Shown here: piece by piece, positions 1,609-26,161 of the stretch
Position numbering within the stretch: the stretch's first letter is position 1
Layout: each line of letters begins with the position of its first letter
From: Candidatus Neomarinimicrobiota bacterium
GTDB lineage: Bacteria; Fidelibacterota; Marinisomatia; Marinisomatales; S15-B10
Reading direction: 5' to 3'
Length of the DNA: 46,222 nt
Assembly (NCBI GenBank): GCA_036476315.1
Contig: JAZGBI010000108.1
Location: 1-46,222 of the forward strand
The notes under the pieces: model-generated
Database searches by the model: none
What the model was told of the DNA's origin: nothing
What the model saw: the letters and a program-made list of their open reading frames with translations, nothing else
Translations under genes and position numbers: made by a program

Positions 1609-1817
1609 AAAAAGAATGGCCTAAAAATGGTTGCGACACGCAAGGGAGTGGACGTGCACGGGGAATAGGATGAATTACTGTCTGACCCCGATGACTATCG
1701 GGGGAGTTTAATTCATCCCCTCGGGCAGGACCAGACCCGGCGCAACTATTTTTCAGCCAGAGTTCTCCACAGGATCTTGAGATTTTGCAGTACTTTTCTT
1801 GCGATCAAGAAAAGTAC
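1609..1817 (+). repeat. Structured repeat element, copy A (of three)
   Basis: This copy starts with an A-run and TGGCCTAAAA. The outer stem pairs 1623-1635 with 1741-1753 (one mismatch and one G-T pair). The inner stem pairs 1668-1677 with 1709-1718 (perfect, GGATGAATTA with TAATTCATCC). Inside it the conserved ACTGTNTGA, a small GC hairpin and GAGTTTAA are seen. A separate 12-bp perfect hairpin (1790-1801 with 1806-1817, loop CGAT) ends the element. The two other copies keep the pairing with different bases. Here it precedes the dehydratase gene by 72 bases. I see nothing else between 1424 and 1608. Confidence 0.85.
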
Positions 1818-3537: not shown

Positions 3538-4996
3538 CTCGACCGGAGCCGGGAACAGGGCAACCCTGGCGTTTCTTCTGGCCTGCGCGTGTCGTGAGCT
3601 GTTCCCGGAAAAAACCCTCTTCATTGAACACTCCATGTCCGACGGCTATTATTGTCACTTCGGCAAGGGTGTCAGGGCAACGGAAAGGGACGTTCGTCTC
3701 ATTGCCCAAACAATGATCCGGTATTTGGAAAGCGAAGTGAATATTGAACTAAGCAAGATATCCGGAGACGAGATGAGTGAGAGGTTTTCCCACGAGGGAC
3801 GGGAGGACAAGCTCGCGGTTCTCGACTCGTGGCGGCAGGATCCCGTTCCCTCTATCAGATTCGGCGGCTTTGTGGATTACCGATTTGAGCCCATGACGGA
3901 AGAGAAGTCCCCCCTTCTCTCTTTCGAACTCGAACCCTACGACGCCGGTTTTGTCCTTCGACTCACCCCAGTCGAGGAAACCGGCGCATTGAAACCGTTT
4001 GTGGACGCACCAAAACTGTATCAGATAATCAAGGAACATGAAAGGTGGGGTAGAATCCTGGGTGTATCGAATATAGGCGAATTGAATCGACTCTCCAGGA
4101 CGGGTGAAATCGGGGAAATGATCCGGGTCGCGGAAGGGCTCCATGAGAAAAAGATATCCCAGATTGCCGACGGTCTCTGCGAGGATTACCCCGCAAAAAG
4201 GGTTGTACTTATCGCGGGTCCGTCCGCTTCGGGAAAGACCACTTTCGCAAAAAGACTTGGCATTCAACTGAAAGTGACCGGTCTTTCCACCTTACCTGTC
4301 TCAATGGACAATTATTTCCTGGATCGAGATGAGATGCCGGTGGACGAGCAGGGACGCAGAGAGTATGAGAGTATCACCGTACTTGATGTCGACGCTCTAT
4401 GTGATCATATCCTCCGGCTTTTGAACAGCGAACCAATTCCTGAAAGAATATTCGATTTTTCCACCGGCAGGGGGTATGAGACAGGCCGGACAATCGAAAT
4501 ACCTGAGGAAACATTCATCATTCTCGAGGGGATTCACGGCCTTAATCCCCTTTTCGCCGAACGGGTGGGAAAAGAAAAACTTCAGCGAATCTACGTCAGC
4601 GCCCTTACACAGCTCAACGTGGACAACGAGCACCGGGTGTCCACAGCGGACAATCGCCTCCTGAGAAGACTTGTCCGGGACAATAGTTTCCGGGGTTATT
4701 CATCAGGGGAAACGCTTTCACAGTGGTCACGGGTCCGGAAAGGGGAGGAGCAAAACATCTTTCCTTACCAGGAGGAGGCGGAATTCATGTTCAATTCAAG
4801 TCTGATTTATGAGATTCCCGTTCTGGCAAATCTTGCCACTTCTCTTCTGGAAGGAATTCCAGAAGGGAGTGATTATTTCCAGGAAGCTCAGCGCTTAGTT
4901 ACGTTTCTTTCCTTCTTCACGAGAATCGCCCCGGAACGCATTCCCGAAACCTCCATCCTCCGGGAGTTTATTGGAGGAAGCGGGTTTGATGGATGA
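3479..4996 (+). CDS. Uridine kinase family nucleoside kinase with N-terminal ThrRS-like domain
   Basis: This protein of about 505 residues has two parts. Residues about 28-110 ([28 protein letters not shown]) match the editing-like domain of threonyl-tRNA synthetase that precedes the kinase in this family. Residues from about 240 form a P-loop kinase with Walker [10 protein letters not shown] (247-255) and the uridine-kinase features [13 protein letters not shown] and [13 protein letters not shown]. Such fused proteins are called uridine kinase-like or nucleoside kinases; phosphoryl transfer to a nucleoside is likely but the substrate is not proven. The start at 3479 was chosen for GGGAG ten bases upstream; 3455 is also possible. 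Either start overlaps yjbQ. Confidence 0.85.
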
Positions 4997-7291: not shown

Positions 7292-7438
7292 GATGACTGG
7301 CAAGACGCTGAATTTCAAGTTACCTTCCTCGCCAAGCGATTTCAAGACAATTCCATTGATTCAAGGAGGGGGCCTGTGTAAGTTTTTCGCCGCTGGTCCA
7401 AGGAACTTATCATTCCGGAGCCGGTTTCAGGGAGAAGT

Positions 7439-8425
7439 ATGACAGACAAAAATGACATTGCGCTTGTGCAGGAACTGCACGTTTCAAGGGACAAGATTCT
7501 TACGGAGCTGCGAAAGGTTATCGTAGGCCAGACGCACATCATTGAACATATCCTGATAACGCTCCTCTGTCGTGGTCACGCCCTCATAATCGGCGTTCCG
7601 GGACTGGCAAAAACACTGCTCATCAAATCAGTTGCGCAGATTCTCGATCTGAAATTCAGCCGGATTCAATTCACCCCAGACCTCATGCCCAGTGATATTA
7701 CGGGAACGGAAATCCTTGAGGAAGATCACAAGACCGGCAAGCGCGATTTCAGGTATATCAAAGGACCAATCTTTGCCAACATCATTCTCGCCGATGAAAT
7801 CAACCGGACACCCCCCAAGACCCAGGCTGCCCTGCTCGAGGCGATGCAGGAATACCGGGTCACGGCCGCTGGCGTCTCATACACGGTGGAAGAGCCTTTC
7901 CTCGTCCTGGCTACCCAGAACCCCATCGAACAGGAGGGGACGTATCCCCTTCCCGAGGCACAGCTCGACCGATTCATGTTCAGCCTGGACATCACCTACC
8001 CTTCCACGGCTGAAGAGATCGACATTGTGAAGTCCACCACAAGCGCCAGGGAAGAAAGTCTGGAAACCATCATCTCCCGGGATCAGATCATGAGCTACCA
8101 GTCTCTCATCCGCCGCGTTCCGGTAGCGGATAACGTGGTGGAGTTTGCCGTTGATCTCGTGGCGAAAACCCGTCCGGGGGACCGTGGTCCCCAGTTCATA
8201 GACGATTGGCTTGATTGGGGCGCAGGACCCCGGGCATCTCAATACCTGATTCTCGGAGCAAAGGCGAAATCGGTTCTCGAAGGACGGCCCACCCCCGCTA
8301 TCGAAGATGTTTTGACCATGGCCAAGCCCGTTCTCCGGCATCGTGTTATCACGAATTTCAATGCCGAGGCCGACGGCGTCTCAACCGACGCTGTCCTGGA
8401 GAAGTTGATTGAGGAAATACGGTAG
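7439..8425 (+). CDS. MoxR family AAA+ ATPase
   Basis: This 328-residue AAA_3-type ATPase has Walker A GVPGLAKT at residues 52-59, Walker B IILADEINR near 114-122 (followed by TPPKTQAALLEAMQE), and sensor 1 in LATQNPIEQEGTYPLPEAQLDRF. MoxR proteins act as chaperone-like ATPases, usually with a DUF58 protein and a VWA protein. ATG 7439 is preceded by GGGAG at about six bases. Its usual DUF58 partner follows, but a four-helix-bundle gene and repeat arrays lie in between. The TAG stop is the first triplet of a GTTNNAC array. Confidence 0.95.
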   Translation: MTDKNDIALVQELHVSRDKILTELRKVIVGQTHIIEHILITLLCRGHALIIGVPGLAKTLLIKSVAQILDLKFSRIQFTPDLMPSDITGTEILEEDHKTGKRDFRYIKGPIFANIILADEINRTPPKTQAALLEAMQEYRVTAAGVSYTVEEPFLVLATQNPIEQEGTYPLPEAQLDRFMFSLDITYPSTAEEIDIVKSTTSAREESLETIISRDQIMSYQSLIRRVPVADNVVEFAVDLVAKTRPGDRGPQFIDDWLDWGAGPRASQYLILGAKAKSVLEGRPTPAIEDVLTMAKPVLRHRVITNFNAEADGVSTDAVLEKLIEEIR

Positions 8426-8474
8426 ACGTTCCACGTTAGACGTTAGATGTTAGAGGTTAGATGAAAAGAGTTAG
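8423..8474 (+). repeat. GTTNNAC heptamer array at the MoxR stop codon
   Basis: About five degenerate GTTNNAC/GTTAGAN units start at the MoxR stop (TAG ACGTTCC ACGTTAG) and fade out just before the next ATG. The array is in inverted orientation to the one at 8834-8866, so the four-helix-bundle gene sits between inverted arrays. Confidence 0.8.
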
Positions 8475-8476
8475 CA

Positions 8477-8851
8477 ATGGGAACGTTTAAGGATTTGGAA
8501 GTGTTTCAGCTTGCTTTGCAGTACGCAAAATCAGTCTACCAGATTACTCAGCCTTTCCCCAGTACAGAGCAATTTGGATTGACGAATCAAATGAGGAGAG
8601 CTGCCATAGCAATTCCATCAAGTATCGCAGAGGGTTCAGCCCGCAGAACCGCTACTGACCGGAAACATTTCGTAGATATCGCACTGGGATCGTTGAATGA
8701 ATCTCACGCACAATTAATACTGGCAGTGGAGCTAGGCTATATGAGTCAGGAAAAGCTTGGTGAGGCGGAGAGGTTTATTGAGAAACTGAAATCGAAGCTT
8801 TTCGCCTACCACAAATCCATCAAGTCACGACCAAAAACGTCTAACTTCTAA
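8477..8851 (+). CDS. Four-helix-bundle protein (S23/IVP family)
   Basis: This 124-residue protein contains the family signature: FKDLEVFQLALQYAKSVY, then GLTNQMRRAAIAIPSSIAEG, then FVDIALGSLNESHAQLILAVELGY. The family was first described from intervening sequences in 23S rRNA genes; most members stand alone and their function is not established. Here it interrupts a MoxR-DUF58 operon and is flanked by inverted heptamer arrays. The last residues and the stop codon (TCT AAC TTC TAA) are made of array units, so the C-terminus appears to have been set by the repeat. Confidence 0.9.
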   Translation: MGTFKDLEVFQLALQYAKSVYQITQPFPSTEQFGLTNQMRRAAIAIPSSIAEGSARRTATDRKHFVDIALGSLNESHAQLILAVELGYMSQEKLGEAERFIEKLKSKLFAYHKSIKSRPKTSNF

Positions 8852-8866
8852 CTTCTAACGTTTAAC
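8834..8866 (-). repeat. GTCTAAC heptamer array before the DUF58 gene
   Basis: Four units of GTCTAAC/TTCTAAC type run up to the ATG of the DUF58 gene and encode the last codons of the four-helix-bundle gene. Read outward from the DUF58 gene they are GTTAGAC/GTTAGAA. Confidence 0.8.
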
Positions 8867-9766
8867 ATGAGTACCATTGATAAACGTAAGTACCTCCAAC
8901 CCGAGATTGTGGCGAAATTGAACAACATGTCCCTCCGGGCGCGGTTGGTGGTGGAAGGATATATCATCGGACTGCACAAGAGTCCCTACCATGGATTTAG
9001 CGTGGAGTTTGCGGAACATCGGGCATACGGTCCCGGAGATGAAGTCCGTCATATAGATTGGAAATTATACGGAAAAACAGACCGGTACTATATCAAACAG
9101 TTTGAAGAAGAAACCAATCTCCGGTCTTACCTTCTGCTGGATACCAGTAGGTCAATGACCTATAAGAGCTCGAAAGTCAGCAAACTGGAGTACGGAAGCT
9201 ATCTGGCAGCGGCACTCACCTACCTCATGCTTGCCCAGCAGGACGGTGTTTCCATCACCCTGTTCGATGACGGCATAAGAGGATTCGTTCCCCCCCGTTC
9301 CACACCCGGCCATCTGAACACGATTCTTGCCGAACTGGAGAACATCGAAGTCGGAGAGGACACGAAAGTTGCCCCCACACTCCATCATCTGGCAGAAAAG
9401 GTCAAGAAACGGGGACTAATCATCCTGATCTCGGATCTCCTGGACGAACCCGAGGAGGTACTCACCGGACTGAAACACTTTCGTCACAAGAAGCACGAAG
9501 TGATCGTCTTTCACATCGTTGACAGAAGGGAGCGAGATTTCGATTTTTCCGTGAGAACTCGTTTCCGTGACATGGAAACGGGGGAAGAGATCACCACTGA
9601 GCCGTGGCAGATCCAATCGGCATACCGTCAGGTGATGCAGCGGTTCCACGACTTTTACAGGACGCAGTGCCGAAAACGGAACATTGACTACGTTTCGCTC
9701 CAGACCGATCAAAACCTGGATCTGGCCCTTACAAGTTACTTAATGAAACGGAAGGGTATAGGATAG
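8867..9766 (+). CDS. DUF58 domain-containing protein (MoxR partner)
   Basis: This 299-residue DUF58 protein has the family core GPGDEVRHIDWKLYGKTDRYYIKQFEEETN and a VWA-like MIDAS start (LLLDTSRSMTYKS). A Rossmann-type half follows (LIILISDLLDEPEEVLTGL). No membrane segment is seen, so it is the soluble form. DUF58 proteins pair with MoxR ATPases in putative chaperone or metal-insertion modules. No downstream VWA or BatA-like gene follows; the next gene is convergent. The ATG directly follows a heptamer array, leaving no clear ribosome-binding site, so expression may depend on readthrough from moxR. Confidence 0.93.
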   Translation: MSTIDKRKYLQPEIVAKLNNMSLRARLVVEGYIIGLHKSPYHGFSVEFAEHRAYGPGDEVRHIDWKLYGKTDRYYIKQFEEETNLRSYLLLDTSRSMTYKSSKVSKLEYGSYLAAALTYLMLAQQDGVSITLFDDGIRGFVPPRSTPGHLNTILAELENIEVGEDTKVAPTLHHLAEKVKKRGLIILISDLLDEPEEVLTGLKHFRHKKHEVIVFHIVDRRERDFDFSVRTRFRDMETGEEITTEPWQIQSAYRQVMQRFHDFYRTQCRKRNIDYVSLQTDQNLDLALTSYLMKRKGIG

Positions 9767-12149: not shown

Positions 12150-12347
12150 ATGAAAAAATCGGCCTTAAAATCGTCCCGCTGGAATTCGTGGAGATGGAGA
12201 CGCGGATGAGAATCCATGACTGTGTGAGGCCGTCAACAGGCGGGCGAGTTTCATGGATTCCCGTGGCTTCAGCCGACACGGGCGGGAGGATTTTTCAGCC
12301 GGAGGTTCTCTTGGTACTTCTCTTTCGACAAAGAGAAGTACAGAAAA
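12150..12347 (+). repeat. Structured repeat element, copy B (of three)
   Basis: It begins with an A-run and TCGGCCTTAAAAT. The outer stem pairs 12167-12179 with 12282-12294 (one mismatch). The inner stem pairs 12210-12219 with 12251-12260 (perfect, GAATCCATGA with TCATGGATTC), enclosing ACTGTGTGA and GAGTTTCA. The terminal hairpin is a perfect 12-bp stem (12314-12325 with 12330-12341, loop CGAC). Stem sequences differ from copies A and C while pairing is kept. It lies between divergent genes. Nothing else was recognised in 12348-12497. Confidence 0.85.
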
Positions 12348-12497
12348 AACCACGGTCTAGTTGATCCCACAATGATAACTTGGCCCACCATCACCACAAG
12401 ATTTTACATGCCTCTTCCCGTCGCGAAAAGGCGAAGAAAAGACGAAGATGGGGTTGATACAATAACAAATGGATGGTATATTGAAAAAAAGGAAATC

Positions 12498-20003: not shown

Positions 20004-20673
20004 GGTGCTGGCCCCCAGCACCCTGCTCTCTCAATTCAACCTTCAACATCATTACGACCTTGGCCGGGAAATCTTCACTTCCACGGCGGAATTTCTGTCT
20101 CATGATGCTTTCGGCACCACATTTGGATTCACCGACATCAATTATGACTCCCATCACTACGACAAGACTGGTGCCACGGACATGTACTTTGAGATCATGC
20201 GGTATTTTGAAATCCCACGGATCAACAGGAATCTTAGTGCCACCGTCCAGTACAATGACGGCGTCATTTTCTTTCCTGAGTCGGATACCACGATATTCTC
20301 AGCGGTCAATCGGGTTTGGCTGGGGGGTCTCAGCTATCTGTTTCCTTTTGAAGAGTTAAGTTTATCCGGCGATTTACTGGTAAGGGGCGAACATGGAGAT
20401 GAAGGATTGACGTATCAGATTACACTTGTATGGTTTTATCCCATGGCTGGGCGTTTTGCATTTATGGGATTTATGGACGTGTGGAACTCGGAAAAGGATG
20501 CGACAATTGTTTTAATGAGCGAACCTCAGCTCGCTTATCAGATTGGAAAGTTCAGTACAGGTATGGAAGTGGAGGTCTCATGGAACTTCCCAGCCGCATG
20601 GACCCGGAAGAAGGATTACGAGAAGAACAAATTCTTCGCCATCCCCACCGTATTCTTCAAGTATACATTCTAA
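19813..20673 (+). CDS. DUF5020 family outer-membrane protein
   Basis: The mature part (FNLQHHYDLGREIFTSTAEF, GTTFGFTDINYDS, MYFEIMRYFEIP, NLSATVQYNDG, VWLGGLSYLFPF, GFMDVWNSE, MSEPQLAYQIGKFSTGMEVE) follows the DUF5020 barrel family to its terminal beta strand ending KYTF. The function is unknown; the architecture resembles nucleoside-specific channel (Tsx-like) barrels. The start is unclear: ATG 19813 gives an 81-residue lead before the mature part. The best signal peptide (basic SRKKLTSVRG, hydrophobic ILGLGSWLVLA, then STLLS) begins near 19948, where only a CTG is available. All of that peptide is encoded by repeats. A strong hairpin terminator follows. Confidence 0.82.
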   Translation: MDSGNWLMLVVTANCLLRTANRSGAEIPPVPILSGILRDWLLGSCLSRKKLTSVRGILGLGSWLVLAPSTLLSQFNLQHHYDLGREIFTSTAEFLSHDAFGTTFGFTDINYDSHHYDKTGATDMYFEIMRYFEIPRINRNLSATVQYNDGVIFFPESDTTIFSAVNRVWLGGLSYLFPFEELSLSGDLLVRGEHGDEGLTYQITLVWFYPMAGRFAFMGFMDVWNSEKDATIVLMSEPQLAYQIGKFSTGMEVEVSWNFPAAWTRKKDYEKNKFFAIPTVFFKYTF

Positions 20674-20689
20674 CGGTTCTGCTCGGGAT

Positions 20690-20727
20690 AAAAGATGCCA
20701 TCCCGACTGGTCGGGATGGCATCTTTT
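20690..20727 (+). terminator. Hairpin terminator after the DUF5020 gene
   Basis: A perfect 18-bp stem (20690-20707 with 20710-20727) beginning AAAAGATGCC and ending GGCATCTTTT lies 17 bases after the stop codon. The A- and T-rich stem base would act in both directions. Confidence 0.85.
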
Positions 20728-20805
20728 AGGTTCAAGCTCCTTTCAGCCACACAGAACTGAATATTTCTCTTGTCCGACCACTGACGGAAATCCGACACCC
20801 CACAA

Positions 20806-21000
20806 AGAAAAAAATCGGCCTTAAAATAATCTAGCTGGAAGTGGGACCAACGTGGACGAGGGTAACAATCAATTACTGTTTGATCCCGACCCGTCGGGAG
20901 AGTTTAATTGATTGCCTCGGACACGGTGGGCCCGGCTAGATTATTTTTCCGCCGGAGTTCTTTTGCAGTACTTTTCTTGCGACCAAGAAAAGTACGAAAA
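20806..21000 (+). repeat. Structured repeat element, copy C (of three)
   Basis: It begins with an A-run and TCGGCCTTAAAAT. The outer stem pairs 20823-20835 with 20935-20947 (13 bp perfect, AAAATAATCTAGC). The inner stem pairs 20866-20875 with 20905-20914 (perfect, CAATCAATTA) and encloses ACTGTTTGA, a TCCCGA-TCGGGA hairpin and GAGTTTAA. The terminal hairpin pairs 20968-20979 with 20984-20995 (12 bp perfect, loop CGAC). It lies between two convergent genes, so it is not a leader of a gene. With the terminator it explains the 400-base gap; 21001-21074 holds nothing recognisable. Confidence 0.87.
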
Positions 21001-25654: not shown

Positions 25655-25774
25655 GACTCCCAACGTCTAACGCTTAACTCTCTTAGTCTTTTATTCTTCT
25701 ACTTTTATCTTGCCTGCCCCGTAGCGACAGCGTACGGGGGAACTTGGAACTTTTATCTTGGCCCTTCGGGCCAG
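25655..25774. repeat. Mixed repeat array between terminator and tmRNA
   Basis: Contains GTCTAAC-like and TTTTATC units, a GCCCCGTAGCGACAGCGTACGG hairpin unit related to the palindromic units at 5175 and 19943, AACTTGG units and a GGCCC-TTC-GGGCC hairpin directly after the tmRNA end. Confidence 0.65.
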
Positions 25775-26161
25775 TGGAGGCGGGGAGATTCGAACTCCCG
25801 TCCGGAACGGCGATACGGCCAGTCTCTACATGTTTAGCTCGCTAGTTTTTTCTCATCCCGGAGGAGCTTAACGAACACCCTCCTTCCAGAACCAGTCTGC
25901 TTTGTTCTTGTCCCGATTACACAGACGAAAGCCGGGACCAGCCCTTATTTGCGACGTTCTGTCCGGACGCCAAAGGCGGGCTTCCGGGAGAACGGCTGTC
26001 GTCAATTAAGCGACAGCGAAGTTGCCAGTGTTGGCACTTCTTTTTCTTCCAGGGTGATTAATCCCGACGAATCGGGATCCCGGTACTTCGGGAAGAGGTG
26101 ACCTGGAATCCTCTACATGCAACCGAACGTCTCTTCCGCCCCGTCGAAGCCAGTCGCCCCC
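25775..26161 (-). ncRNA. ssrA: Transfer-messenger RNA (tmRNA)
   Basis: The 5' end GGGGGCGACTGGCTTCGACG and the 3' end GAGTTCGAATCTCCCCGCCT fold into the tRNA-Ala-like half, with a 7-bp acceptor stem (GGGGGCG with CGCCTCC). The T-loop and the invariant 5' sequence are standard. The 3' CCA is not encoded (ACTGG follows). The tag reading frame is 26006-26035: GCC AAC ACT GGC AAC TTC GCT GTC GCT TAA, giving ANTGNFAVA after the first alanine carried by the RNA itself. AGAAGT before the GCC resembles the usual A-rich resume context. The length of 387 bases is normal. It rescues stalled ribosomes with SmpB. Confidence 0.96.

Follow-up and report, generated by a model that had tools for sequence, protein, structure and literature searches.

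The described systems closest to the elements analysed here are the bacterial miniature transposons (MITEs), gene-less derivatives of DDE insertion sequences that are short, carry terminal inverted repeats, are bordered by target-site duplications and reach high copy numbers, and the REP/REPIN sequences of RAYT transposases, which are dispersed intergenic hairpins with conserved unpaired letters, compensated stems and divergent doublets. HEARO and omega RNAs are likewise structured sequences tied to transposons. REPs that bear a CGTC tag and have no dedicated transposase have also been reported in Bacteroidetes and Chlorobi (PMC3733652), and in Bacteroidetes the genes of RAYT subclass 2.6 are reported to be flanked by genome-dispersed "atypical secondary structures" (PMC6006769). 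Here we show that three look-alike elements in a 46,222-nt stretch of a Candidatus Neomarinimicrobiota genome (contig JAZGBI010000108.1; "the window") belong to a large family of hairpin modules, and we consider it likely that this portable structured module is the cargo of gene-less MITEs, its fold perhaps being kept for recognition through the internal loop.

Results

An earlier note on the window had described three elements of common layout, at 1609-1817 (copy A), 12150-12347 (copy B) and 20806-21000 (copy C); all three were found there with the shared layout, and the outer and inner stems read as it had quoted them. Its statement that every stem remains paired holds nearly, with one mismatch in the outer stem of copy B and one G-U pair in copy A. 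The predicted folds far exceed those of dinucleotide shuffles (z-scores of -7.7 for C, -6.5 for A and -6.1 for B), none of the 200 shuffles of each copy being as good.

The copy C module, a core plus a terminal hairpin, occupies 20815..20995 on the + strand and has kept no transposon ends. Within its core (20817..20953, +; covariance-model match of 126.5 bits), the internal loop has an invariant 5' side, CTGTTTGA (20876..20883, +), and an invariant 3' side, GAGTTT (20900..20905, +), and is closed by a nested 16-bp palindrome, TCCCGACCCGTCGGGA (20884..20899, +), that is swapped among copies; the 12-bp terminal hairpin lies at 20968..20995 (+). The copy B module (12159..12341, +) comprises a core at 12161..12300 (+; 140.4 bits) and a terminal hairpin, GTACTTCTCTT..AAGAGAAGTAC, at 12314..12341 (+) that is compensated relative to A and C, and is followed at 12381..12415 (+) by the remnant of a right transposon end (..CACCACAAGATTTTACATGC.., 25/35 identical to the end consensus). 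In copy A (module 1616..1817, +; core 1618..1758, +, 131.4 bits) an insertion of 20-odd bp (CCACAGGATCTTGAGATTTTGCA) precedes the 12-bp terminal hairpin (1790..1817, +), and transposon ends are again not kept. Copy B represents a MITE insertion that has decayed, and A and C are modules without preserved ends. Copies A and B are located between divergent genes and copy C, as had been pointed out, between convergent gene ends (20673 on the + strand and 21075 on the - strand).

Two further palindromic features of the window are of note. Directly past the gene ending at 20673 there is a perfect 19-bp hairpin (TAAAAGATGCCATCCCGAC..GTCGGGATGGCATCTTTTA, tip TCCCGACTGGTCGGGA; 20689-20728), probably the terminator of that gene. 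Adjacent palindromes, TCCCGACGAATCGGGA and TCCCGGTACTTCGGGA, are found at 26062-26093 within the tmRNA gene (25772-26161, - strand); the first is of the same type as the nested palindrome of the elements, and both may be ordinary tmRNA helices.

Three copies proved far too low a count. BLAST with copy C gave 34 matches within this 2.6-Mb genome, and a covariance model (R1) that was trained on 23 of its copies raised the number of distinct copies to 41, located on both strands (the search returned 44 rows, but three are opposite-strand echoes), so that the genome-wide search proposed in the earlier note bore out its view of a dispersed repeat and excluded the outcome of no further copies. The module measures about 190 nt and consists of two hairpin domains. 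Its core of about 140 nt is composed of an outer stem, an inner stem, the internal loop TGTnTGA / GAGTT and a small closing hairpin; along the + strand of the element, a basal stem (TCGGC/GCCGG in the most frequent type, and GTCGC/GCGAC both in a second type and in the sister genomes described below) is followed by TTA, which is unpaired, an outer stem rich in A and T, a variable stem and a roughly 10-bp inner stem, inside which the asymmetric internal loop leads to a G+C-rich closing palindrome. On the 3' side of the core, a T-rich linker (..GTTCTTTTG..) precedes the second hairpin of 9-12 bp, which varies by compensated pairs (GTACTTTTCTT, GTACTTCTCTT, GCGGTTTTCTT); there, 27/30 own-genome and 24/29 other copies have a perfect hairpin with 9 bp or more, and none was detected when a control stretch further downstream was used. 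We rejected the terminal hairpin as an intrinsic terminator, since by eye no T-run follows it on either strand, and the internal loop as a K-turn, whose canonical C-stem the strands, again by eye, do not form. All ten pairs of copies no more than 200 bp apart are divergent, with the terminal hairpins outside (chance about 1e-6), and the ancestral unit of this genome was therefore probably two-armed. One 353-bp unit of the same genome (L090, G000:C58:9255-9350) with an exact 9-bp duplication, TAAGTGACA, and a different terminal hairpin (TTCTTTTTGTATCTAGACAAAAAGAA) is absent from the R1 match list and is a further subtype of the family.

The compensatory stem changes seen earlier in three copies are borne out by covariation far above controls. 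Among the 23 own-genome copies, 25 of the 42 pairs have changed on both sides, and 94.3% of cells are paired compared to 78.9% in shuffled alignments (as high in 0/500 shuffles) and no more than 54% with the strands slid against each other. When 23 rows from mostly distinct lineages were fitted to the fold of the model, 37/42 pairs had changed on both sides and 92.4% were paired, versus 62% after shuffling. Between types the stems change blockwise and the loop letters hardly vary: TGT.TGA and GAGTT are kept in 21-23 of the 23 rows, nearly all of which come from different genomes. The earlier note had taken such changes to imply selection on a folded RNA or on single-stranded DNA, which is not compulsory because correction by template switching, a known mechanism for quasi-palindromes, can keep inverted repeats complementary. 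If template switching between the arms introduced paired changes in one event, the fold itself need not be selected, and the exchange of whole stem blocks among copies and the replacement of stem parts by small palindromes speak for such correction. We nevertheless regard an unselected fold as unlikely, since the unpaired loop letters are near-invariant across lineages while the stems vary, and since bulges and loop asymmetry are kept that correction alone would not preserve. The invariant unpaired TGTnTGA and GAGTT thus argue for a selected recognition structure.

A selected fold could also act as a transcribed RNA, either a small RNA or an mRNA-end element, that transposons spread incidentally. 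The very stable + strand fold and the strong covariation would suit this explanation, as would the excess of G-U over A-C mismatches in a strand-neutral alignment (24:12 in own stems, 18:9 in those of relatives), but the diverse set of non-own copies lacks this excess (11:8, p = 0.65), copies occupy every gene context, convergent ends included, and the Rfam check that had been suggested yielded no match to a known family for any copy, even at E up to 1 (elsewhere than the copies, two sub-threshold chance matches were the only ones). Overall, we judge an RNA function of this kind to be somewhat improbable. As a test of the strand, the ratio of G-U to A-C mismatches, 42:21 overall and lost in the diverse set, is unusable. 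Between an RNA and a REP-like hairpin recognised as single-stranded DNA, the sequences slightly favour the latter, because an invariant unpaired loop combined with stems that are free to vary is the signature of a recognition structure.

Frames that carry the core were characterised in G011 and G024 (records TS1B10-2 and B71T3L11), sister genomes that belong to the same order but to another family. Here, units of 339-405 bp enclose the core and end in CTCA(A/T)GTTTCGCAC / GTGCGAAACTTGAG (CTCAAGTTTCGCAC ends), a motif counted 35 times in G011 and 60 times in G024, with the reversed control occurring once in each. Exact target-site duplications border ten of the G011/G024 copies and are either 7 bp (TAATGTA, TAATTTA, TAAGTAA, TCATTTA, TAAATAA, CAGATAA and TCTCTTA) or 6 bp long (AGGTTA, TTATCA and TAGTCA). 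For the TAATTTA insertion of G011 (L072) the orthologous site in G024 is empty and has a single TAATTTA, which proves recent movement. Ends of this type also bound a 519-bp unit of G024 that codes for the N-terminal part of a transposase of the IS4 family. The G011 homologue of this fragment adjoins one such end; the G024 and G011 fragments match NCBIfam NF049925 at E = 1e-5 and 2e-8.

The frames of the window's own genome look unrelated to these. They have terminal inverted repeats GGAAGCATGTA..., with ends GGAAGCATRTA..TTGTGG / CCACAAGATTTTACATGCTTCC, and duplications of 9 bp that are exact (9/9) in two units, GGTAATCCC (665 bp) and TAAGTGACA (353 bp), and match at 8/9, 8/9 and 7/9 positions in three more; recognisable ends are present on part of the copies only, and most duplications are imperfect. 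The same core is thus carried by two unrelated-looking MITE frames, with 9-bp and 6-7-bp duplications, respectively. Frames of 228-259 bp without the core also exist in the own genome, and G024 frames in which a small palindrome takes the place of most of the core keep a perfect duplication. The core is dispensable for the movement of this kind of frame, since frames without a complete core have also moved. No homologue of the IS4-like fragment of G024 was found in the own genome, and its single DDE_Tnp_1 locus was rejected as the cognate transposase, because the gene is split and lacks such ends.

One MITE insertion is orthologous in the sister genomes (L076 in G011:C49 and L138 in G024:C7), and its two units are almost identical except that four palindromes of about 16-22 bp (TCCCGATGCATCGGGA, CCTGTCCGCCGACAGGCGGG, CCTGCCTGTCGGCAGACAGG and TCCCGACATAATTATGTCGGGA) have been acquired or exchanged: two were inserted cleanly and two took the place of stem DNA (compare L118, L120, L124, L125, L127 and L152). 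Across 24 units, insertions that reach 15 nt or more are mostly palindromic, and these palindromes of about 16-22 bp look like very short mobile palindromes.

Since RAYT genes of subclass 2.6 are reported beside dispersed "atypical secondary structures" (PMC6006769), we also considered that the module is an atypical REP of this Bacteroidetes subclass of RAYT (TnpA-REP) that has been orphaned here. The divergent doublets resemble REPINs, and a Y1 gene is present in 8/11 element-bearing genomes versus 17/50 others (p = 0.04), but searches with PF01797 (Y1 HUH transposase) gave no match in the own genome or in the nine other family members searched, R1 matches lie near none of the 30 RAYT loci of the order within the flanks examined, and terminal inverted repeats and duplications account for mobility without a RAYT. 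This origin is decidedly improbable in our estimate for the module as it now stands, and possible historically; mobilisation by RAYT/IS200 in the own genome was rejected because the Y1 gene is absent there and RAYT loci elsewhere have no flanking elements. A single MITE of G011 (L083, G011:C3:62688-63408), bordered by its own duplication, TTATCA, lies roughly 100 bp away from a RAYT-like gene that contains a stop codon; we take this proximity as coincidence.

Outside the own genome, R1 matches are present in 11 of 61 close relatives and, patchily, in at least 21/245 genomes and at least 15/84 genera of the phylum, the 245-genome count being a lower bound because stricter filters were applied. 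The earlier note had mentioned similar palindromic elements in other phyla, and scanning viral contigs with the loop motif indeed revealed the same layout beyond the phylum, in the viral-database contigs L183 and L240, the latter with three copies. R1, although trained on own-genome copies only, detects the L183 copy at E = 9e-8 and the L240 copies at 2e-4 to 9e-4. The L183 copy adjoins a sodium:alanine symporter gene, which we take to be of the type associated with gut Bacteroidales, and one short faecal phage record resembles this Bacteroidales-like copy; a search of a plasmid collection found no similar DNA. In L240, two divergent copies enclose small ORFs (7568-7993 and 7996-8649) at 7326-8917, a possible cassette bounded by module arms, and the third copy is at 3812-3911.

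Discussion

Taken together, the high copy number, the terminal inverted repeats with their duplications, the two frames and the empty site point to a structured module that MITEs carry as cargo. The frame would be moved in trans by a DDE transposase, which for the frame with 6-7-bp duplications would be of the IS4 type, and the hairpin, less certainly, may be read by way of its loop, either as RNA or as single-stranded DNA, in the way that REP hairpins are. A broader proposal is that transposon frames unrelated to each other have carried one and the same module, its loop invariant and its stems free, across bacterial phyla, and that a factor reads the folded DNA or RNA; we advance this only tentatively and hold it to be doubtful.

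R1 makes a family that Rfam lacks searchable by covariance model, and the literature that we found contains no description of it in Marinimicrobia: neither the motifs themselves nor MITEs of Marinimicrobia led to any paper relevant to the module. The module is cargo common to two MITE frames, and the empty site demonstrates recent movement. Whether recognition, RNA function or palindrome correction maintains the pairing of large hairpins dispersed in bacterial genomes is now directly testable, and the sister genomes show stem and nested-palindrome replacement at one orthologous site.

Compared to HEARO and omega RNAs, the module differs in having no Rfam match. CGTC-tagged REPs are palindromic repeats that likewise lack a dedicated transposase, but they are single hairpins of 20-40 bp with a CGTC tag (PMC3733652), whereas the module here is about 190 nt long with two hairpin domains. 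REP/REPIN sequences of RAYTs are several times shorter and possess a GTAG foot that is missing here, and the own genome has no RAYT, nor do the 30 RAYT loci in related genomes have an adjoining match; with the atypical structures of RAYT subclass 2.6 (PMC6006769) the module is compared by description only. The likeness to bacterial MITEs extends to the relic transposase unit with matching ends in a sister genome and to insertion polymorphism, as at L072, but here one structured core resides in two frames with different ends, and this core has an invariant internal-loop motif and also occurs outside both frames. MITEs and palindromic repeats are known kinds of elements, and what is new is a large two-domain hairpin module housed in two MITE frames.
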